Source: Verrucomicrobiia bacterium | GTDB taxonomy: Bacteria > Zixibacteria > MSB-5A5 > DSPP01 | DNA: 34,026 nt | NCBI GenBank assembly: GCA_035574275.1 | Contig: DATLYY010000004.1 | Span: forward strand, 1-34,026 | Reading direction: 5' to 3' | Shown here: piece by piece, positions 221 through 13,305 of the stretch | Position numbering within the stretch: the stretch's first letter is position 1 | Layout of the letters: every line of letters begins with the position of its first letter | Notes under the pieces: model-generated | Database searches by the model: none | The model's input: the letters and a program-made list of their open reading frames with translations, nothing else | What the model was told of the DNA's origin: nothing | Made by a program: the position numbers and the translations under genes

Positions 221-994
221 TTACTGTTTCAACGCTCCAGCCGTCAACCCGGCGATAATCTGTTTCTGCAAAACCAAAAAAACGGCCAAAACCGGAATGG
301 TAGCAACAGCCGAAGCGGCGAAAAGATGCGGCCAGTCGATGGCCTGATAGCTCTGGTACATCGCCAAGGCCACCGGCAAGACCCGCAGGTTTTCCGAAGA
401 GGTGAATAGGAATGGAAAGAGAAAATTGTTCCAGTTCACCCAAAAGGATTGAATGGCCAGGGCCGCCAAAGCCGGTTTGGCGAGCGGCGCGACAATCGAG
501 AAAATGATGCGCAATTCCCCCGCGCCGTCCAAGCGGGCGGCCTCCTCCAGTTCCACCGGCAAAGAAAGAATGTATTGGCGCAACAACAGAATTCCGAGCG
601 GAGAAACCAGAAACGGGACAATCAAGGCCCAATAGGTGTCGTACCAACCCAGCTTCCGGACGAGCAAGAAAAGCGGGATTATGACCACGTGGGTCGGCAC
701 AGCCAATACAGCCAGAATCGATATGAAAAGAAAACGATTGGAAACCGTCGGGTAGCGGGCCAGTCCGTACCCGGCCAGAAGAGCGAAGAATAGGTTGCCG
801 AGCGTTATCACGGCGGTGACGAAAACGGAGTTGAAGAAGGCCCGTGAAAACATCTTTTGCTCCAGCACGTCTTTGAAATTGTTCAACGTCCAGCCGGGGG
901 AAAGGGAGACGTAGAACATCCAGAAAAAAGGGAAAAGAAAAAGGATTGCCAGCGCGGCCAAAAGCAGGAAGGTCGGGAGGAGGGGAGTCCGCAT
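221..994 (-). CDS. Carbohydrate ABC transporter permease, MalG/UgpE type
   Basis: This 257-residue integral membrane protein has about six hydrophobic segments and matches the second permease of CUT1-type sugar importers (binding-protein-dependent transport inner membrane component). The EAA loop that docks with the ATPase is at about residues 150-172 (ELEEAARLDGAG...APLAKPAL), with the conserved EAA and downstream Gly. The family is usually about 270-290 residues, so the N-terminus is slightly short. The start ATG shares one base with the stop codon of the upstream permease gene (TAATG), which implies translational coupling. It is the last gene of a binding protein-permease-permease operon. 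No ATP-binding subunit follows, so the complex must borrow an ATPase (MsmK/UgpC-like) encoded elsewhere. The substrate is inferred to be a sugar or glycerol-phosphate type solute and cannot be specified. Confidence 0.9.
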   Translation of the reverse strand: MRTPLLPTFLLLAALAILFLFPFFWMFYVSLSPGWTLNNFKDVLEQKMFSRAFFNSVFVTAVITLGNLFFALLAGYGLARYPTVSNRFLFISILAVLAVPTHVVIIPLFLLVRKLGWYDTYWALIVPFLVSPLGILLLRQYILSLPVELEEAARLDGAGELRIIFSIVAPLAKPALAALAIQSFWVNWNNFLFPFLFTSSENLRVLPVALAMYQSYQAIDWPHLFAASAVATIPVLAVFLVLQKQIIAGLTAGALKQ

Positions 995-1881
995 TACGCT
1001 TTTGTCTGCGCCGGAGCCAAAACCTCCGATTCCGATTTAAAGCTCTTGAACAGGAAATAAGAGAACAGCGCGATAATGGCGAACAAAAGATAGGCCGCCG
1101 CCGAGGCGTACCCCATCTTGAAACGGTGCAACCCCTCCTCGTAAATGAAATAGACTGCCGTTGTCGTCGAGCCCAGCGGGCCGCCTTTGGTCATCACGAA
1201 AACCTCCGTGAAGACCTGAAACGACTTGATGGTATTCAGGGTAACGATAAAGAAAAGCATCGGCTTGATGGAAGGGAAGGTTACCGCCCAAAAGGTCTGC
1301 CAGCTGTTGGCCCCTTCGACTTTGGCCGCTTCGTAGAGCTCCTGCGGCACGTTTTGCAACGCGACAAGAAACAGCAATATGTAGTAGCCGATGGCCGCCC
1401 AGATATCCATTATCATAATCGAGGGGAGGGCCGTTTTGTCAGAAAGCAAAAATCCGCCGGAGGGGAGGTTGAAAAACTGTCCGAGAAAGCGGTAGAGCCA
1501 GCTCCCCTCGGAATACAATTTGGTGAAAATCAGGGCGACGACGACGAGGGACGTGATGGTTGGGATGAAAAAGGAGGCCTTGAAGAAATTTTTTCCCCAG
1601 ACCGGGCGGTTCAAGGCCAAGGCCAGAAGCAGGGCGAAAAGGGTGGTAAAGGGGAGCGTACCAATTACGAAAAGGAATGTATTCCAGAGAGCTCTTTGAA
1701 AGCTCGGGTCGCTTAACAGCCTTCTAAAGTTCTCCAGCCCAATCCAATTCAGTTCGCCGGAAAGAAGATTGTAGTCGGCAAAGGCCAGGACAAGCGACCA
1801 GACAAGAGGGAATATCCAGATTAGAAGTAGGGTTAAAGTCCAGGGAAGGGGGAGCAGATAACCGGTATTTTTTCCGGCCAT
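994..1881 (-). CDS. Carbohydrate ABC transporter permease, MalF/UgpA type
   Basis: This 295-residue inner-membrane permease is the MalF/UgpA-like partner of the gene that follows. Hydrophobic segments lie near residues 10-35, 68-92, 105-120, 155-178 and in the C-terminal third. The EAA cytoplasmic loop is at about 181-207 (ELYEAAKVEGANSW then FPSIKP) and is a good match to the consensus. Its start ATG overlaps the stop of the binding-protein gene by one base (TGATG), and its stop overlaps the next permease start by one base. The three genes are therefore one tightly coupled operon. It would form the transmembrane heterodimer that receives solute from the lipoprotein. Length is typical for CUT1 permeases without the extra N-terminal helices of E. 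coli MalF. Confidence 0.92.
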   Translation of the reverse strand: MAGKNTGYLLPLPWTLTLLLIWIFPLVWSLVLAFADYNLLSGELNWIGLENFRRLLSDPSFQRALWNTFLFVIGTLPFTTLFALLLALALNRPVWGKNFFKASFFIPTITSLVVVALIFTKLYSEGSWLYRFLGQFFNLPSGGFLLSDKTALPSIMIMDIWAAIGYYILLFLVALQNVPQELYEAAKVEGANSWQTFWAVTFPSIKPMLFFIVTLNTIKSFQVFTEVFVMTKGGPLGSTTTAVYFIYEEGLHRFKMGYASAAAYLLFAIIALFSYFLFKSFKSESEVLAPAQTKA

Positions 1882-3089
1882 CAGCTTTTCAAAAGAGCGT
1901 TAATTTTGGCCGCCGCGTCATCCAGCGCCTCCTTGGCCGACTTCTTTTTGTACATCGCCTGCTCGACGGCCTCCTCAATCGCCTGTTCGATTTCCACCCA
2001 GTGAGGATGGGGAGGGGAGCTCTGCGCCAACTGTAACTGCTCGATAAAAGTTTTGTAGTTGGCATCGGAAAGAAAGAAAGTGTCCGCCTGGGCGGCAACC
2101 GACGAAGGGGTCGGTATCAAGGCGTTTTTGCAGAAGTACACCTGATTATCCGGACGAACCAAAAACTGCACGAAGCGCCAGGCAAGATCTTTTTTCTTCG
2201 ATTTGGCAGGGATGGCCAAAAATTCCCCGCCGGCAAAGGAGGTGCGGCGGTACAACTGGCCGTCGGGAGAAGGCATCAACGCTGTTGTGTAGCCGAATTT
2301 GGGTGGGGCGTTCTTCAGCTTTTTCAACAACCAATCGCCGGAGATGACGGAGGCCAGCTTTCCCTGCAAAAAAGCGTCGTCCAGATTGGCCTGCGTAGCT
2401 AAAAGAGAGCGCTCACAGAGCTCGACGTAAAACTTCAAGGCCTGCACCCCCTCCGGCGAATTCAAAAGGCAGGTTTTGCCATCCTCAGACAGGATTTCCC
2501 CACCCGCGCTCCACAAAAAGGGGAGGAATTTCTTGTAGAGCCGGTGACGTTCGGAGGCGTTGGCGCCGAAACCGTAGATTTCCGGTCTGAATTTGGCCAG
2601 CTTTTTATTCAGCTTATCCAATTCGTCCCATTTCACCGGCACATCGGCAAATCCGGCTTTGTTGAGCAAATCGAAATTATAAAACATCAAACGTGCGCCC
2701 AAAATCCAGGGAACGGCGTAAACTTTTTCATCGAGCGTGGCCGGCTGCCAGAAAAGCAGATCCTTTTTCAAGCTTTCGGCCTTCGGGGTCAAATCTAAAA
2801 GCAGCTTGTTCGAAGCGTACTCGTATATCCAGTCCGAGCCGAGCTCCAGAACGTCGGGCGGCTGGCCGGCGGAAAACGCGACGGTGATTTTCTCGTGGCC
2901 GTCAGCCCAGGTCAAATCAGTCACTTCCACTTTGATGCCGGGGTTTTCATTCTCAAATTTGGCGACCAGCTCGGTTATCAGCGGCTTGGTCTGCGGGTCG
3001 GTCCAGAACTGCCACCAGGTCAGTTTTCCGGTTTCCTTTTTGGAACAAGCGGAGAACAGCAGCAAGGCGAGAAGGACGGCTTTTCGCAT
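1881..3089 (-). CDS. Extracellular solute-binding lipoprotein of the ABC importer (SBP family 1)
   Basis: This 402-residue binding protein captures the substrate outside the inner membrane and hands it to the two permeases. From the chosen ATG the protein starts MRKAVLLALLLFSACSKK, a lipoprotein signal peptide with lipobox FSAC and lipid-anchored Cys15. The mature part has the family-1 pattern: LTWWQFWTDP strand, FENENPGIKVEV, FSAGQPPDVLELGSDW, and the central YAVPWILGARLMFYN segment typical of sugar-binding proteins. An in-frame start 29 codons upstream (3176) is possible, but it would put a charged extension before the signal peptide and overlap the divergent gene. The lipobox and the promoter at 3097-3125 favour 3089. 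No Shine-Dalgarno sequence is apparent, and the -10 box ends seven bases before the ATG, consistent with a leaderless mRNA. Confidence 0.88.
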   Translation of the reverse strand: MRKAVLLALLLFSACSKKETGKLTWWQFWTDPQTKPLITELVAKFENENPGIKVEVTDLTWADGHEKITVAFSAGQPPDVLELGSDWIYEYASNKLLLDLTPKAESLKKDLLFWQPATLDEKVYAVPWILGARLMFYNFDLLNKAGFADVPVKWDELDKLNKKLAKFRPEIYGFGANASERHRLYKKFLPFLWSAGGEILSEDGKTCLLNSPEGVQALKFYVELCERSLLATQANLDDAFLQGKLASVISGDWLLKKLKNAPPKFGYTTALMPSPDGQLYRRTSFAGGEFLAIPAKSKKKDLAWRFVQFLVRPDNQVYFCKNALIPTPSSVAAQADTFFLSDANYKTFIEQLQLAQSSPPHPHWVEIEQAIEEAVEQAMYKKKSAKEALDDAAAKINALLKS

Positions 3090-3096
3090 CGACCAG

Positions 3097-3125
3097 AATA
3101 AAATCTTGCTCTTTACCAATGTCAA
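3097..3125 (-). promoter_or_regulatory. Putative promoter of the ABC importer operon
   Basis: Read on the minus strand there is a perfect -35 box TTGACA (3120-3125), a 17-base spacer, and a -10-like TTTATT (3097-3102). The expected transcription start falls at or within a few bases of the ATG at 3089, implying little or no 5' leader. It is back-to-back with the promoter-like boxes of the divergent operon. Confidence 0.5.
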
Positions 3126-3169
3126 CTTGTATGTGAAAGCCGCCCGCATCGTTTGTGCACTCTTTTTTC

Positions 3170-3197
3170 TTGACAAAAATTTTGGCCGCCATAGCTT
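3170..3197 (+). promoter_or_regulatory. Putative promoter of the DUF6754-like operon
   Basis: A perfect TTGACA (3170-3175) is followed after 16 bases by TAGCTT (3192-3197), a 3/6 match to the -10 consensus. The predicted start of transcription lies about five bases before the ATG at 3209, so the first gene would have a very short leader. The boxes lie inside the codons that would be read if the upstream GTG at 3155 were used, which argues against that start. Confidence 0.4.
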
Positions 3198-3208
3198 ACG
3201 GCCAACCG

Positions 3209-3985
3209 ATGAACACCTTCATCTGGTTGCCCGCCGAAAAAGTTCCGGTTTTTATCGCTTTTCTCTGCGTGGCGGCCGCGCTGTTGGGAGTCTTTTTTTT
3301 GAAACGGCGGGGAAAGAGCTTCAAAATCCGCACCCTGCCCGGGGCTTTGGCCATCGAGGAGGCGATCGGCCGGGCAACCGAGATGGGGAAACCGGTTTTT
3401 TTCACTTCCGGTACGGGGGAAATCGACCGGATGGCGACTCTGGCGGCCCTCTCCGTCCTCGGAGAGGTGGCGTACAAAACGGCGCAGTACGGCACGCCCC
3501 TTTTTTATCCCAACAACGACCCGGTGGTGGCTTCCGTGGCGCAGGAAGTCGCGGCGGAGGCGGCCAGCAAAGCCGGGCACCCCGAGGCGTACAAGCCGGA
3601 AAACGTTTTTTTCGTTACCAAAAGCCAGTTCGGCTACACGGCCCACGCCTCCGGCTTGATGGAGCGGATCAAACCGGCGGCGACCTTGTATTTCGGCACT
3701 TTTGAAGGGGAATCGCTCATATTGGCGGAAACCGGTTTCGCCCAGGGGGCGATTCAAATCGCCGCCACCGATTCCACCATTCAGCTCGCCTTTTTTCTCG
3801 TGGCCTGCGACTACACTTTGATTGGAGAGGAGCTTTTTGCCGCCGGCGGTTCCCTTTCCGGCGACCAGGAGGTGTTAAGCTCCATCGTGGCGCAGGACTG
3901 GCTGAAAGCGGCAGTCATTCTTTTGCTTCTGATTGGGGCGTTTCTGGTCACGTTCACCGGTTTTAATCTGGCCTCCCATCTATGA
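3209..3985 (+). CDS. DUF6754-like membrane protein of unknown function, first gene of a six-gene operon
   Basis: This 258-residue protein has a membrane segment at about residues 12-31 and another at 232-252, with a conserved-looking domain between them. Signature stretches are ALAIEEAIGRATEMGKPVFF (46-65), the GTFEGESLILAETG run (163-176), AIQIAATDSTIQLAFF (181-196) and ACDYTLIGEELFAAGG (199-214). From memory these resemble the uncharacterised DUF6754 family; I cannot run a profile search, so the name is tentative. The alternation of hydrophobic strands and helices suggests an alpha/beta domain facing one side of the membrane. ATG 3209 is preferred over GTG 3155 because promoter boxes lie between them and the longer start would overlap the divergent binding-protein region. 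The stop overlaps the next start (ATGA). No enzymatic motif was recognised. Confidence 0.75.
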   Translation: MNTFIWLPAEKVPVFIAFLCVAAALLGVFFLKRRGKSFKIRTLPGALAIEEAIGRATEMGKPVFFTSGTGEIDRMATLAALSVLGEVAYKTAQYGTPLFYPNNDPVVASVAQEVAAEAASKAGHPEAYKPENVFFVTKSQFGYTAHASGLMERIKPAATLYFGTFEGESLILAETGFAQGAIQIAATDSTIQLAFFLVACDYTLIGEELFAAGGSLSGDQEVLSSIVAQDWLKAAVILLLLIGAFLVTFTGFNLASHL

Positions 3986-4596
3986 CCCGGCGGTTGGTTT
4001 TCTGGATAACCCTAAGTTTCGGCTTATTTATGATTTTCCAGTTTTTCATTCCGGTTTTCAACGGGGCCTATCGAAAAGTGCTGGACTGGATGCAGGTGAT
4101 TTATCTGTCATCCCTTTTAGTTGGGGTCATAGCACTGGGGCTTCAGCATTTGAAAAAAGTGAGCGGGCAGAGTCCGGGCTGGGCTTACAGTTTGGTCACT
4201 ATCATCGGACTATTGGCCATGCCGGTAGCCTCGATTTGGGGAACGGGGGAAAATTCGGCCTTCTTCTGGCTTTTCAACAACCTGCAGGTGCCGATGCAGT
4301 CCACCGTTTTTTCGCTTCTCGCCTTTTTCGTCGCCTCGGCCGCCTTTCGCGGTTTCCGGGCCCGTTCGCTGCCGGCTTTTCTGCTGCTTATTTCGGCGGC
4401 CATCGTGATGTTGGGGCGGGTGCCCATCGGCACAAAACTCTACTTTGATTTCCCCACTTGGGCGCAGACGCTTCTGGATGTTCCGGGCGTGGCGGCCCGG
4501 CGGGGAATTCTCATCGGCATCGGGCTGGGCTCCGTGGCGACTTCGCTGCGGGTGATTTTAGGCATTGAACGGGGCTTTTTCGGGAGGAAAACATGA
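3982..4596 (+). CDS. Polytopic membrane protein of unknown function (operon gene 2)
   Basis: This 204-residue protein is almost entirely hydrophobic, with about six to seven predicted membrane segments (roughly residues 7-26, 37-57, 70-86, 94-118, 128-146, 175-194). A conserved-looking feature is the loop FWLFNNLQVPMQSTVFSLLA followed by a helix, SAAFRGFRARS. Another is the loop GTKLYFDFPTWAQTLLDVPG, which precedes a final helix that includes RGILIGIGLG. I do not recognise a family. It begins and ends with ATGA overlaps to its neighbours, so it is made in step with the DUF6754-like protein and the NTF2-like protein and is probably part of the same membrane assembly. It could be a scaffold or channel-like subunit; nothing in the sequence shows transport activity. 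Confidence 0.72.
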   Translation: MTRRLVFWITLSFGLFMIFQFFIPVFNGAYRKVLDWMQVIYLSSLLVGVIALGLQHLKKVSGQSPGWAYSLVTIIGLLAMPVASIWGTGENSAFFWLFNNLQVPMQSTVFSLLAFFVASAAFRGFRARSLPAFLLLISAAIVMLGRVPIGTKLYFDFPTWAQTLLDVPGVAARRGILIGIGLGSVATSLRVILGIERGFFGRKT

Positions 4597-5090
4597 GCTG
4601 GATACTTGTCATCGTTTTTGCCGGTTTTTCCGGCTATCTGGCCTATCTGCTATTGAAACAGAAGGGGCCGAAACACCAAAAGGAGACGGAAGACGTCAAA
4701 AAGCTGGTTTTCTCCCTTTCCGGCGCCTACCGGGCCAAGGAGTTGAAGGTCATCTCGGCGGCGTTGGCGGATGATTTCTCCGCCTTTCTGGATTCCCCCT
4801 ACCGGATTGACAACAAACGGAACTACATCGCGCTCTTAGAAAACTTTTTTGACGAGGCAACCTTGGACGAGCGCTCCGTATTGCAGGAAAAATTCACCGC
4901 CTGGGAGGGGGGCTGGGTCTTGGCGACCTACCATTTCATCGAAAAAGGTAAGATGGGAGACAAGCCGTTCGAGCGCTCCGGCAAGGCCTCCGAACTGTAC
5001 CGCTCAACCCCCATGGGCTGGAGGGCGGTGCATTTTCATTACACCTATCTGCCGTCCAAGGAAGGAGGGATGGCTTCCGGCCGGATATGA
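4593..5090 (+). CDS. Membrane-anchored NTF2/SnoaL-like protein (operon gene 3)
   Basis: This 165-residue protein has a single N-terminal membrane helix (residues 2-22, WILVIVFAGFSGYLAYLLL) followed by a Lys-rich linker and a soluble domain at about 35-150. The soluble part has the layout of a SnoaL_3/DUF4440-type NTF2 fold. It starts with a helix containing ISAALADDFSAFLDSPYRID, then a second helix ALLENFFDEA. The following strands include VLATYHFIEKGKM and SELYRSTPMGWRAVHFHYTY, matching the usual ending in which a Trp on the last strands precedes a histidine-containing strand. NTF2-like domains are ligand-binding or protein-interaction pockets, and no catalytic set is obvious. The domain assignment is by pattern and not by search. 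The gene overlaps its neighbours by ATGA at both ends. Confidence 0.68.
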   Translation: MSWILVIVFAGFSGYLAYLLLKQKGPKHQKETEDVKKLVFSLSGAYRAKELKVISAALADDFSAFLDSPYRIDNKRNYIALLENFFDEATLDERSVLQEKFTAWEGGWVLATYHFIEKGKMGDKPFERSGKASELYRSTPMGWRAVHFHYTYLPSKEGGMASGRI

Positions 5091-5884
5091 CGCTCAAGCC
5101 GCGGACGTTCGCCTTTCTGGCTGTTTTCATTGCAGTCACTTTTCCCCTGCTTTACCCCTTGAACATTTCCGATCGGGTTTCACCCGAAGCGGTGAAATTC
5201 AAGGCACTTGTGGATTCCATCTCTCCCGGCTCCGTCGTCATGGTCTCCTTCGACCACGAGGCCTCGACGGTGGCGGAAGTGCGCCCTTTGGCCACGGTTT
5301 TGGCTCGGCATTTATTCTCGCGCGACATCAAAATCATCGGGCTTTCACTTTTTGCCGAGGGGACGGCGATAGGCAACCAGGTGCTTTCGCTTGTGGCGGA
5401 GGAGTTCGGCAAAAAGTACGGCGAAGATTGGGTTTTCCTTGGCTTTCGCCCCCAATTTCAGGCAGCGATTTTAGGAATGGGGGAAAGCATTCCCAATGTC
5501 TTTCCGCGGGATTATTATGGCAACGTTACCGACACGCTTTCATTGATTAAAGCGGTCCCCAATTATTCCAAGGTAGCGATGGTGGTTTCGGTGGCGGACG
5601 GGGATTTGGGATATGCCTGGGTGGATTACGCCTACACCCGTTACCATGCCCGTGTGGCGGCGATGCTTACTGCCGTAATGGTCGCCAGCTATATGCCGCT
5701 GTACGCCTCCGGTCAGCTTTCCGGTCTGGTCAACGGCCTGAAAGGGGCTGCCGACTACGAACGGCTTTTGGACAAACCGGGCGCGGCCATCCGCAGCATG
5801 GACGCCCAATCGATGGCCCACGCCGTGATTTTGCTTTTGATTTTGGGGGGAAACGCGGCTTATTGGTGGGGGAGGAAGAAATGA
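5087..5884 (+). CDS. Double-anchored protein of unknown function (operon gene 4)
   Basis: This 265-residue protein has an N-terminal hydrophobic segment (residues 7-25) and a C-terminal one (243-260) that ends WWGRKK. The roughly 215 residues between them look like an alpha/beta domain: strand GSVVMVSFDHEAS (48-60), helix with PLATVLARHL, strand IKIIGLSLF (81-89), helix VLSLVAEEFGKKYG, strand DWVFLGFRPQ (114-123), then VAMVVSVADGD (163-173). A further hydrophobic stretch at 187-205 precedes YASGQLSGLVNGLKGAADYE and the SMDAQSMAH motif just before the last helix. I recognise no family or catalytic motif. The topology suggests a globular domain on one face of the membrane tethered at both ends. 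ATGA overlaps link it to genes 3 and 5. Confidence 0.7.
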   Translation: MTLKPRTFAFLAVFIAVTFPLLYPLNISDRVSPEAVKFKALVDSISPGSVVMVSFDHEASTVAEVRPLATVLARHLFSRDIKIIGLSLFAEGTAIGNQVLSLVAEEFGKKYGEDWVFLGFRPQFQAAILGMGESIPNVFPRDYYGNVTDTLSLIKAVPNYSKVAMVVSVADGDLGYAWVDYAYTRYHARVAAMLTAVMVASYMPLYASGQLSGLVNGLKGAADYERLLDKPGAAIRSMDAQSMAHAVILLLILGGNAAYWWGRKK

Positions 5885-6474
5885 CGGCTGGGACCGTGGT
5901 TGCCGCCATTCTGACTTTGGCCATTTTCAGTTTTCTCTACCGCGAGAACCCCTTCTTCCGCTTCGCCGAGCACCTTCTGGTCGGGCTCTCCGCGGGGTAT
6001 TTCACGGTTATCGCCGTGCAGGGTACGCTCGTACCGAAAGTCATAGAGCCGTTGAAAGCCGGCGATTTCTGGGTGGTGATTTCTTTTGTTTTGATAATTC
6101 TCATCTTGGGGCGTCTGACTGAAAAGACCCGTCCGGCTTCCCGTATTCCGCTCGCGTTGGTCATCGGGGCGGGGGCGGGGGTGGCGGTTCCGGCTCTTTT
6201 GCAGGCCCGTATTCTGGTGCAACTGGGGGCAACGATGAAACCCCTGGGTTCTTTAACCAACGTTTTGATTCTCGTCGGCGTTATTACCACACTTGTGTAT
6301 TTCTACTTTTCCCGCGAGCATAAAGGGTGGTGGGGTCGGCTGGCAAGCGTCGGCACCTGGTATTTGATGATCTTCTTCGGCGCGACCTTCGGCAACACGG
6401 TGATGTCGCGCATTTCGCTTTTAATCGGGCGCTTGGAATTTCTTTTCGGGGATTTTCTGGGCTTGATTAAATGA
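5881..6474 (+). CDS. Polytopic membrane protein of unknown function (operon gene 5)
   Basis: This 197-residue protein has about six predicted membrane helices (roughly 3-20, 33-50, 63-78, 89-108, 124-143, 157-180). A striking motif follows the first helix: LYRENPFFRFAEHLLVGLSAGY (residues 19-40), mixing charged residues with a His in a membrane context. ATG at 5881 was chosen because it overlaps the preceding stop as ATGA, like every other junction in this operon; an in-frame GTG six codons earlier is possible but unneeded. The stop overlaps the start of a 41-residue zinc ribbon gene in the same way. No known transporter or enzyme family was recognised. Confidence 0.7.
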   Translation: MTAGTVVAAILTLAIFSFLYRENPFFRFAEHLLVGLSAGYFTVIAVQGTLVPKVIEPLKAGDFWVVISFVLIILILGRLTEKTRPASRIPLALVIGAGAGVAVPALLQARILVQLGATMKPLGSLTNVLILVGVITTLVYFYFSREHKGWWGRLASVGTWYLMIFFGATFGNTVMSRISLLIGRLEFLFGDFLGLIK

Positions 6475-6596
6475 CCTGCCCGCGCTGCGGGAAACCGATG
6501 CGCGAGGAGAAGCGCTCTTTCCACAAAAACCGTAAATGGAAGTGCCCGCACTGCGGAAAAGTACGATTTCAGAAAATTAAAAAAGAACGGAAATAA
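6471..6596 (+). CDS. 41-residue zinc-ribbon protein (operon gene 6)
   Basis: A short open frame begins at the ATGA overlap with the preceding membrane-protein stop and ends 126 bases later, just before a terminator. The product contains two Cys-x-x-Cys knuckles, CPRC at residues 3-6 and CPHC at 25-28, each followed by Gly-Lys, plus many Lys/Arg residues and no membrane segment. Four cysteines in this spacing are typical of a zinc ribbon that binds one Zn2+ and contacts nucleic acid or protein. The overlap pattern shared with the four upstream junctions is the main reason to believe it is translated. The basic C-terminus (KIKKERK) is consistent with RNA or DNA binding, or with contact to membrane lipid headgroups. 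Its role in the operon is unknown. Confidence 0.65.
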   Translation: MTCPRCGKPMREEKRSFHKNRKWKCPHCGKVRFQKIKKERK

Positions 6597-6626
6597 AAAA
6601 GCGGGCTTTTACAACCCGCTTTTTTG
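6595..6626. terminator. Strong intrinsic terminator, probably bidirectional
   Basis: The hairpin has a GCGGG/CCCGC core (6601-6605 with 6615-6619), a nine-base loop, an A tract before it and a T tract after it, so the A and T runs extend the stem. It directly follows the zinc-ribbon stop and lies about 40 bases beyond the htpX stop on the other strand, so it can end transcription from both sides. Confidence 0.88.
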
Positions 6627-10524: not shown

Positions 10525-13305
10525 ATGGTTGATTGGCACACGTTAAAAACGGAAGAGGTTCTCCGGCGGCTTGGAACGGACGTCGAAGTCGGGCTTTCCG
10601 ATACGGAAGCGGCCCGGCGGCTGGCGAAAGGGGGTCCCAATGAACTATTGGAACGTGGAACCAAAAGCCCTTGGCTGATTTTTTGGGAGCAACTGGCCGC
10701 CACAATGGTGGCGATTTTGCTGGTGGCCGCCGGGCTTTCGCTTTTTCTGGGGGACTACAAGGATGCCATCGCCATTCTGGCCATCGTGGTGCTCAACGCC
10801 GCGCTCGGTTTTTTTCAAGAATACCGGGCCGAGCGTGCGATGGCGGCCTTGCGTCGGATGGTCGTGCCGACGGTCAAGGTCATGCGAAGCGGGCGCATCA
10901 CGGAACTGTCCGCGCGGTTTTTGGTCCCGGGGGATATCATTTTTTTAGAAACCGGAAACCTTGTCCCAGCCGACGCTCGGATTTTGGAATCAGCCAACCT
11001 ACGGGTGCAAGAAGCGGCTTTGACCGGGGAATCGGAGCCGGTTGAAAAAAACGGCGAGCCGTTGCCGGAGGCGGATTTGCCGGTCGGCGACCGGCGGAAT
11101 ATGGCCTACCTCGGAACCGTTGTATCCTACGGCCGGGGGCGGGCGGTCATCACGGCGACCGGAATGGAAACCGAGCTGGGGATAATTGCCGGTCTGATTC
11201 AGGCCGTTCGTCGGGAGCCGACCCCTCTGCAAAAACGGCTGCACCAATTGGGCAAGGGACTGGGACTGGCCGCCCTGATTCTGGTGGGGATTGTCTTCGG
11301 TCTCGGGTTTTTGCGGGGGGAAGAGTTAAAGCTTCTGTTTATGACCGCACTAAGTTTGGGGGTTGCCGCAGTCCCGGAAGGGCTGCCGGCCATCGTTACG
11401 ATCGCCCTCGCCTTGGGTGCCCAGCGCATGCTAAAACGGAATGCCTTGATTCGCAAACTGCCGGCGGTGGAAACGCTCGGCTCGGTGACGGTCATCTGCT
11501 CCGACAAGACCGGAACGTTGACCGAAAACAAGATGACGGTAACCATACTGGATGCCGCCGGCGAGCGGCTTGATTTGACCGAGCATTTGCGCCGGTCCGG
11601 TTTGGTCGGCGCAGGATTGGGGGAACGTTTTCCGGAAATTGTCGGACCGGCCGGCGAGGTCCCGCCTCGTCCGACGCTTTCTCCCCCGCTGCGGCTGCTT
11701 TTGGCCGGCGGGGCTTTGTGCAATGACAGCACCTACCTTTCCAAGCGGGAAAAAGACGGCCATCCGCACGTCTATGGCGACCCCACCGAGGCGGCTTTGG
11801 TTCTGGCCGCTGCGTGGCTCGGGATGGAAAAGCCGGAGTTGGAACGGATGTTTGTCCGGGCGGGGGAAGTTCCGTTTGAATCGGAACGGAAACGAATGAC
11901 TACCGTGCATCGCGTTCTTTTCGGTCAGGACGCGATGGATCATCCGCTTGCGGATTTGGTGCGGGCCGCCCAAGAAGCGTCCTTTGTCGCCTTTACCAAA
12001 GGTGCCGTCGATGGGCTGTTGGATGTGTCGACTGGCGTGTGGGTCGATGGTGAAGCGCAGCCCTTAACCGAGCAATGGAAAAACCGGATACTTTCCGCCA
12101 ACAACGAGCTGGCGCAAAAAGGCATGCGCGTTCTGGGTCTGGCGTTTCGCCGTTTGAAGGATTTCAACGCCGGAAAAGACCAGAGCAAGCTGGAGCAGAA
12201 TTTGGTCTTCATCGGCTTGGTGGGAATGATTGATCCGCCCCGGCCGGAAGCGAAAGATGCGGTGGCGACCTGCCAACGGGCCGGCATCCGGCCAGTGATG
12301 ATTACCGGCGACCATCCTTTGACTGCCATCAGCATCGCCCGTGAACTGGGTATCGCCCGTGACGGAAAGGTTCTTTCCGGGCGGGAACTGGGCCAGCTTT
12401 CGGTTCGGGAGCTGGAGCGGGTGGTGGAGGACATCCCGGTTTACGCCAGGGTGGGACCGGAGCACAAGCTCAAAATCGTGGAAGCCCTGCAGAAACGAGG
12501 CGAGGTGGTGGCCATGACCGGCGACGGAGTAAACGACGCCCCAGCTTTGCGGAAAGCGGACATCGGCGTGGCAATGGGGAGGGCGGGGACCGACGTTGCG
12601 CGCGAAACCGCCGACATGGTGCTTCTGGATGATAATTTTGCCACGATTGTGGCGGCGGTCAAAGAGGGAAGGGCGATTTACGACAACGTCCGCAAGTTCA
12701 TCAAATACCTTTTGACCAGCAATTCCGGCGAGCTTTGGGTGATGCTGGCGGCCCCCTTTTTGGGAATGCCCCTCCCGCTTTTACCATTGCAGATTCTTTG
12801 GATTAATCTGGTCACAGACGGGCTGCCGGCACTGGCATTGGGCGTGGAACCGGCGGAGCGGAACCTTATGCGTCGCCCCCCGTATTCTCCCCAGGAAAAC
12901 ATCTTCGGACGGGGAATGGGCCGGCACATTATTCTGGTCGGATTCCTGATGGGGGTATTGACGTTGGGCGGCGGGTTTTGGTACTGGAGGGAAGGGTACA
13001 ACGAGTGGCAGACCGTCGTTTTCACCACGCTCGCTTTGGCGCAGATGAGCCATGTTCTGGCCATCCGCTCCGAACGGGAATCACTTTTTACGCTCGGGTT
13101 ATTTTCGAACAGGCCGCTTTTGGGCGCCGTGGCGCTGACTTGCGGGCTGCAGCTTCTGGCCGTCTATCATCCGCTATTCCAGGAAACCTTGAAAACCGTT
13201 TCCCTCTCGGCCGCCGAGCTTCTACTGTGCGTCGTATTTAGCAGCGGCATTCTTTGGGTGGTTGAACTGGAGAAATGGTTTCTTAGGCGCTCGTCTCAAA
13301 ATTGA
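10525..13305 (+). CDS. Ca2+-transporting P-type ATPase (type IIA, SERCA-like)
   Basis: This 926-residue ATP-driven pump exports Ca2+ from the cytoplasm. Domains in order: N-terminal cation-ATPase domain (1-70), M1-M2, actuator with LTGES, M3-M4 with PEGLPA, and the phosphorylation motif CSDKTGTLTEN with Asp327. The nucleotide domain contains FTKGAVD, followed by MITGDHPLTA and the hinge MTGDGVNDAPALRKADIGVAMG; six C-terminal helices close the protein. Ca2+ ligands seen in SERCA have counterparts: Glu of PEGLP (M4), Asn and Glu in TSNSGELW (M5), and Asn, Thr and Asp in INLVTDGLPA (M6). The M8 Glu of SERCA is not evident (LALAQMSHVL instead), as in bacterial one-Ca2+ pumps such as LMCA1. Length is normal. 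It is first in a four-gene cluster with a second ATPase. Confidence 0.93.
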   Translation: MVDWHTLKTEEVLRRLGTDVEVGLSDTEAARRLAKGGPNELLERGTKSPWLIFWEQLAATMVAILLVAAGLSLFLGDYKDAIAILAIVVLNAALGFFQEYRAERAMAALRRMVVPTVKVMRSGRITELSARFLVPGDIIFLETGNLVPADARILESANLRVQEAALTGESEPVEKNGEPLPEADLPVGDRRNMAYLGTVVSYGRGRAVITATGMETELGIIAGLIQAVRREPTPLQKRLHQLGKGLGLAALILVGIVFGLGFLRGEELKLLFMTALSLGVAAVPEGLPAIVTIALALGAQRMLKRNALIRKLPAVETLGSVTVICSDKTGTLTENKMTVTILDAAGERLDLTEHLRRSGLVGAGLGERFPEIVGPAGEVPPRPTLSPPLRLLLAGGALCNDSTYLSKREKDGHPHVYGDPTEAALVLAAAWLGMEKPELERMFVRAGEVPFESERKRMTTVHRVLFGQDAMDHPLADLVRAAQEASFVAFTKGAVDGLLDVSTGVWVDGEAQPLTEQWKNRILSANNELAQKGMRVLGLAFRRLKDFNAGKDQSKLEQNLVFIGLVGMIDPPRPEAKDAVATCQRAGIRPVMITGDHPLTAISIARELGIARDGKVLSGRELGQLSVRELERVVEDIPVYARVGPEHKLKIVEALQKRGEVVAMTGDGVNDAPALRKADIGVAMGRAGTDVARETADMVLLDDNFATIVAAVKEGRAIYDNVRKFIKYLLTSNSGELWVMLAAPFLGMPLPLLPLQILWINLVTDGLPALALGVEPAERNLMRRPPYSPQENIFGRGMGRHIILVGFLMGVLTLGGGFWYWREGYNEWQTVVFTTLALAQMSHVLAIRSERESLFTLGLFSNRPLLGAVALTCGLQLLAVYHPLFQETLKTVSLSAAELLLCVVFSSGILWVVELEKWFLRRSSQN

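Follow-up and report, generated by a model that had tools for sequence, protein, structure and literature searches.

The six-gene operon at positions 3209-6596 of the analysed window, a stretch of 34,026 nt from contig DATLYY010000004.1, is one paralogue of a larger system that is encoded elsewhere in the genome and comprises multi-cassette arrays, an ATPase of the MutL family and a barrel-sandwich (BSH) protein. Comparison across genomes indicates that the conserved unit consists of four of the six genes, p1-p2-p4-p5. An obligate membrane complex of these four products is well supported, judging from their co-divergence and co-occurrence. To the more specific reading, that the operon would encode a specialised paralogue of a so far undescribed machine in the inner membrane, served by MutL and BSH and possibly acting as an ATP-controlled transporter or gate, we give a little less than even weight. 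Three of the four core proteins belong to no Pfam family and the fourth carries a domain of unknown function; the gene set is defined and can be taken up in complex prediction, expression work and structural studies.

The window operon and its products

The source genome is a metagenome-assembled genome (MAG) of Candidatus Zixiibacteriota, as are its nearest named relatives. Direct reading of the sequence places six open reading frames on the forward strand across 3209-6596, and codon use and homology identify all of them as real genes. The gene p1 (3209..3985) encodes a DUF6754 protein with a Rossmann-like alpha/beta domain between two transmembrane (TM) segments, as judged from the PF20539 profile, the AlphaFold model and positive-inside topology. 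It is followed by p2 (3982..4596), a 6-TM protein of predicted N-in/C-in orientation that has orthologues in every cassette type, and by p3 (4593..5090), an N-terminally anchored NTF2/SnoaL-like protein. The product of p4 (5087..5884) is the second TM-alpha/beta-TM protein of the operon, its Rossmann-like domain being predicted as periplasmic from AlphaFold and topology, p5 (5881..6474) encodes a predicted N-out protein with six TM segments and a C-terminal hydrophobic helix, and p6 (6471..6596) a basic zinc ribbon of 41 aa with a CxxC..CxxC pattern. A strong stem resembling an intrinsic terminator (6595..6625, no strand assigned; 13 pairs, loop of 5, flanking A/T runs) separates the operon from a convergent htpX-like gene. 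A preliminary description of the same DNA had proposed an ATGA-chained operon of six reading frames closed by such a terminator, and our direct reading agrees. The individual product descriptions given there hold as well, with p1 being an actual DUF6754 protein.

All five junctions from p1 to p6 are ATGA overlaps. This is unusual, yet it is the common overlap type in this window, where by our reading of the gene calls four-base overlaps occur at 3 of 14 other same-strand junctions. Relatives do not keep the overlaps, with the exception of the p4-p5 junction in the window-type clade (10/10), and ATGA was rejected as a conserved signature; what is conserved is gene order and tight packing. The earlier argument was that order and coupling imply a stoichiometric assembly; the overlaps are not conserved and alone imply no stoichiometry.

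Upstream of the cassette lies a divergent sugar ABC-transporter operon with a binding protein and two permeases (221-3176, reverse strand), and the same divergent operon stands upstream of the window-type cassettes at loci L021-L024.

Along nearly its entire length (residues 6-252 of 258), p1 matches PF20539 with 4.4e-87 and 292 bits at a cut-off of 27, and is a full-length DUF6754 member beyond mere resemblance. Its start at ATG 3209 is uncertain, GTG 3155 or TTG 3170 also being possible. In the sister genome JAKEHY010000022, which has the identical six-gene order and a p1 with 93% identity, conservation with the window at 3164-3211 reaches back from the p1 ATG to a perfect TTGACA (3170-3175), and the sequence further upstream is not conserved. 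In p1 orthologues, the region upstream of ATG 3209 holds a signal peptide. Two readings of the conserved stretch are possible: it is a promoter whose transcript would have almost no leader, or it encodes a brief signal peptide ahead of the ATG that is read from TTG or GTG. The p1 proteins of arrays possess an extra signal peptide and an external Fn3-like domain, the latter being missing from the window p1. The invariant polar residues of p1 lie in three loops, those that follow strands 1, 4 and 6. Rossmann-like folds bind ligands in such post-strand loops, and by this analogy p1 may bind a ligand.

The two remaining genes appear as accessories when their homologues are mapped. Outside the window, the p3 gene, a genus-specific insertion between p2 and p4 that scores below threshold against SnoaL_3 (19.2 of 22 bits), was found in the sister genome alone. 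The p6 protein, with its two CxxC pairs, likewise stays below threshold against Zn_ribbon_3 (25.5 of 27 bits). It follows p5 in most window-type loci, homologues being located 3' of p5 in L022-L024, L026, L027, L030, L117 and L121, which marks it as an accessory of this clade. Of the fixed six-gene set previously proposed, the order p1-p2-p4-p5 stands, whereas p3 is restricted to one genus and p6 to one clade.

The AlphaFold models of p1 (pLDDT 84.8, pTM 0.77) and p4 (pLDDT 88.6, pTM 0.84) are built alike: both start with a TM segment and a helix, continue with six strands that alternate with helices and end in a second TM segment. Solved-structure matches of both models were generic Rossmann-like folds only, the best for p1 being 6y01, 2iz5 and 1rcu (TM about 0.5 on target). 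For p1, Foldseek pointed to the SLOG fold; profile comparison ruled out this membership (hhalign probability 0.2%). Positive-inside counts predict a cytosolic p1 domain and a periplasmic p4 domain, and opposite orientations for p2 and p5, each a 6-TM protein of about 200 aa. Topology and predicted fold together suggest that the cassette consists of two pairs, each of one alpha/beta and one 6-TM protein, with inverted topology. Such an arrangement hints at an ancient duplication with inversion. This scenario stays a hypothesis, because hhalign detected no sequence homology between p1 and p4 or between p2 and p5, and distant homology of either pair was rejected on this basis.

Neither the window copies of p2, p4 and p5 nor the 20-32 relatives of each that were scanned belong to a Pfam family, and profile searches against the PDB matched solved structures at chance level at most. 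At Pfam and NCBIfam cut-offs and with solved-structure profiles, none of the three matched a known transporter, channel or secretion family. Neither a conserved transporter or channel motif nor a conserved cysteine was found in p2 or p5. The proposal of an undescribed membrane assembly is consistent with these results, as the profiles matched no known transporter.

Conservation, paralogy and co-divergence of the four-gene unit

A script-based survey of 24 loci recovered the order p1-p2-p4-p5 in 37 of 39 cassettes from two or more phyla, with gene starts in the relatives picked by script and many of the genomes being MAGs. Locus L092 is a 38th ordered cassette, its p4 lying at 11095-11892 of the locus between p2 and p5. 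In the remaining exception, L091, p1 adjoins BSH and p4 is located about 3 Mb away. Recurrence of the gene order in other genomes had been suggested as a check, and the core order does recur widely (about 38/39 cassettes); homologues routinely standing singly or in unrelated neighbourhoods, or belonging to known transporters, were looked for and neither was the case. At locus L026 (9382-10200, forward strand), p4 is broken into two reading frames by a frameshift or an assembly error.

Within Zixibacteria the module is near-universal. We found p4 in 132/133 genomes and in 79/79 of those of good quality, and DUF6754 in 58/58 relatives with copy numbers similar to those of p4. Most Zixibacteria genomes contain two to six cassette copies, arranged as tandem arrays of two to four plus single loci; the window genome has three, one in the window (contig C4) and a tandem pair on contig C74. 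With two to six diverged copies in essentially every sampled member, the module is probably central to the physiology of the phylum. In genome G004, four tandem p1-p2-p4-p5 cassettes form a run of 16 consecutive genes (L118, 3904-19116, reverse strand). Beyond Zixibacteria, the distribution was sampled in two phyla, Planctomycetota (50 of 199) and the phylum of L028 (1 of 58); the module would be patchy in Planctomycetota.

In a tree of concatenated sequences, cassettes cluster by array position across families. The window-type clade is separate and fully supported, and another clade represents a second single locus that often lies near genes for PGI, an NTP-transferase, metK and ahcY. Each of the four gene trees (p1, p2, p4 and p5) separately recovers the five cassette types as monophyletic. 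When cassette identity was shuffled within genomes, 0/300 permutations reached the observed distance correlation for any of the six gene pairs. Since separate trees and permutation agree, the four genes diverged as a set, with no exchange between paralogous cassettes. Such co-divergence would be expected of an obligate complex with cassette-specific contacts, and it is the strongest evidence obtained.

Co-occurrence points in the same direction. Among 75 genomes, of which 55 had been chosen for having DUF6754 and 20 for lacking it, p4 was present in 55/55 and 0/20, respectively. Both p1 and p4 are kept in genomes G165, G228, G246, G278 and G335, where long distances separate them or they sit on different contigs, and in Planctomycetota the parts of the module are gained and lost jointly even when scattered. 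An ordinary operon, in which unrelated membrane proteins are merely co-transcribed and form no complex, would be in line with the coming and going of p3 and p6. It is hardly credible in view of the invariant order and phylum-wide retention, the way in which the four genes co-diverge along the cassette types, and their co-occurrence even when unlinked.

Two further origins or roles were rejected. Viral contigs contained no relatives of the module and plasmids none of one p1 paralogue and BSH, which speaks against a mobile or viral origin. As regards a defence system, PADLOC models gave only a chance-level match to the zinc ribbon.

An associated MutL-type ATPase and BSH protein

The arrays usually adjoin genes for a single-copy MutL-type ATPase of the ASKHA superfamily and the BSH protein; this neighbourhood was seen in Zixibacteria, in sampled Planctomycetota and in one MAG labelled Oligoflexia. 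The array MutL has 600-620 aa and matches PF13941 above the cut-off (423 bits). Its partner, of 375 aa, combines a KOW-like C-terminus with a barrel-sandwich domain that weakly resembles those of RnfC and NqrA. MutL is single-copy in nearly every relative, and in the 75-genome sample BSH was present in 50/55 genomes with DUF6754 vs 0/20 without; its lack in the other five is perhaps due to incomplete assembly. In the window genome, MutL (C41:17660-19081, 438 bits) and BSH (contig C2) are each encoded once. The window cassette is unlinked to both, and its dependence on them is therefore putative.

Glutamate mutase E (PF06368) was absent from the window genome and from 27 of 29 relatives. Because of this absence, the array MutL is not explained by glutamate mutase, and a role as chaperone of that enzyme was rejected.

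Fusions of MutL and BSH into a single reading frame, in operon order and with 839-949 aa, occur in two phyla: in Planctomycetota at L140 (7298-9814, forward) and L141 (7278-9794, reverse), and in Zixibacteria at L142 (5968-8814, reverse) and L143 (5438-8041, reverse). They are separate, extra copies and were not seen beside DUF6754 cassettes. Giant BSH or p1 fusions in Planctomycetota turned out to be spurious long frames overlying true genes in another frame, leaving the MutL-BSH fusions as the only real ones.

Other genes were also noted near MutL. Proteins of about 130 and 165 aa, possible further subunits, are encoded there in two phyla (L096, 17722-18592, reverse; L095, 9594-10371, reverse; L035, 18425-18814, reverse; L089, 3948-4349, forward); they have no confident Pfam match, the best sub-threshold one being PF13796. 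TolQ/ExbB- and TolR/ExbD-like genes lie near MutL-BSH arrays at four loci (L084, 2294-3405, reverse; L085, 18404-19501, forward; L089, 1109-2882, forward; L090, 14421-16189, reverse).

Possible function and comparison with known systems

The core of the machine would most likely be a complex of two oppositely oriented pairs, one formed by the cytosolic Rossmann-like p1 and the 6-TM p2, the other by the periplasmic Rossmann-like p4 and the 6-TM p5. In its main version, two to four cassettes would be combined with one cytosolic ATPase pair, the MutL-type ASKHA protein and BSH. This pair would dock on the cytosolic faces, probably on p1, and its binding and hydrolysis of ATP would drive or reset the membrane part. 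The two 6-TM proteins might form a path or gate, with p4 perhaps handling an external and p1 an internal ligand, and each paralogous cassette might serve a different ligand or position. The whole could then work as a transporter controlled by ATP or as a gated channel. The proteins p3 and p6 would be cytosolic add-ons of the copy in the window. ATP-coupled transport or gating is our best guess for the module, and a weak one, which the data distinguish poorly from the scaffold and sensor readings discussed below.

A scaffold or assembly platform is a rather unlikely but serious alternative, in which the ASKHA protein and its bitopic and polytopic partners would organise an envelope structure and move no solute. 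Such organisers are PilM with PilN/PilO in type IV pili and GspL in type II secretion. The combination of an ASKHA ATPase with membrane partners, the several specialised paralogous cassettes kept adjacent, the periplasmic Fn3-like domains of array p1, typical of surface or scaffold proteins, and the TolQ/TolR-type genes near some arrays all fit a platform. However, pilus or secretion genes were not present in the neighbourhoods seen, two 6-TM subunits per cassette exceed what a platform needs, and general rather than dedicated family searches of Pfam and the PDB gave no PilM/N/O- or GspL-type match for the proteins tested.

In a signalling complex, p1 and p4 would sense ligands on the two sides of the membrane, p2 and p5 would relay the signal and MutL-BSH would be the cytosolic output. 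Two features of p1 are in favour of sensing: its fold weakly resembles Rossmann-like domains that bind nucleotides or cofactors (MoCo carrier, LOG, RCK), and the loops that follow strands 1, 4 and 6 are polar and conserved. Against it, the neighbourhood contains no conserved kinase, cyclase or DNA-binding partner, and profile comparison did not place p1 in SLOG; this alternative is improbable. Still less probable is an ion- or electron-translocating machine of the Rnf/Nqr style, with BSH in the place of RnfC/NqrA and the inverted 6-TM pair resembling NqrD/NqrE. BSH does weakly match RnfC_N (best 6e-4, sub-threshold), the BSH part of the fusions matches NQRA_N (0.0077), and p2 and p5 have a suitable size, TM number and opposite predicted orientation. 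Nevertheless, they match neither Rnf/Nqr chains in the PDB nor the Pfam Rnf families, they lack a conserved cysteine, and no flavin or Fe-S subunit is encoded adjacent. Membership in Rnf/Nqr was rejected, as 6-TM subunits of the RnfA/E-NqrD/E type with their conserved cysteines could not be recognised.

The preferred ATP-controlled machine could belong to a new class of ATP-coupled inner-membrane machines, powered by a MutL-type ASKHA protein with a BSH adaptor and assembled from modular cassettes, each of two oppositely oriented pairs, in arrays of up to 16 genes, a proposal that we make with appreciable doubt. It would be a good case of membrane complexes built by inverted-topology subunit pairs and cassette duplication. 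The module appears to be undescribed so far: no paper naming DUF6754 or PF20539 was found in the freely accessible literature searched, and further literature searches yielded nothing pertinent.

Among known families, PF20539 covers p1 in full length (292 bits), one subunit to which Pfam assigns no function, and leaves the partners p2, p4 and p5 without a family. Among solved structures, the p1 model is matched best by SLOG/MoCo-carrier proteins, but p1 gives no profile-profile signal with PF18306 members and lacks the GGxG motif. The N-terminal domain of the 375-aa BSH partner resembles RnfC_N/NQRA_N below threshold; unlike RnfC and NqrA, the protein has no Fe-S or NADH domains, and other Rnf/Nqr subunits are unrecognisable. 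GlmL/MutL (PF13941) is a reactivase-like ASKHA partner of glutamate mutase with about 460 aa. The array ATPase shares with it the profile match of 423 bits and the DxGSTTTK motif, but falls below the NCBIfam cut-offs (GlmL, 231 of 475; glmL_fam, 167 of 204), is longer (615 aa) and is tied to BSH and membrane cassettes. Under the association proposed here, the MutL/GlmL ATPases that are orphans in these genomes would have a partner that is not a B12-dependent mutase.
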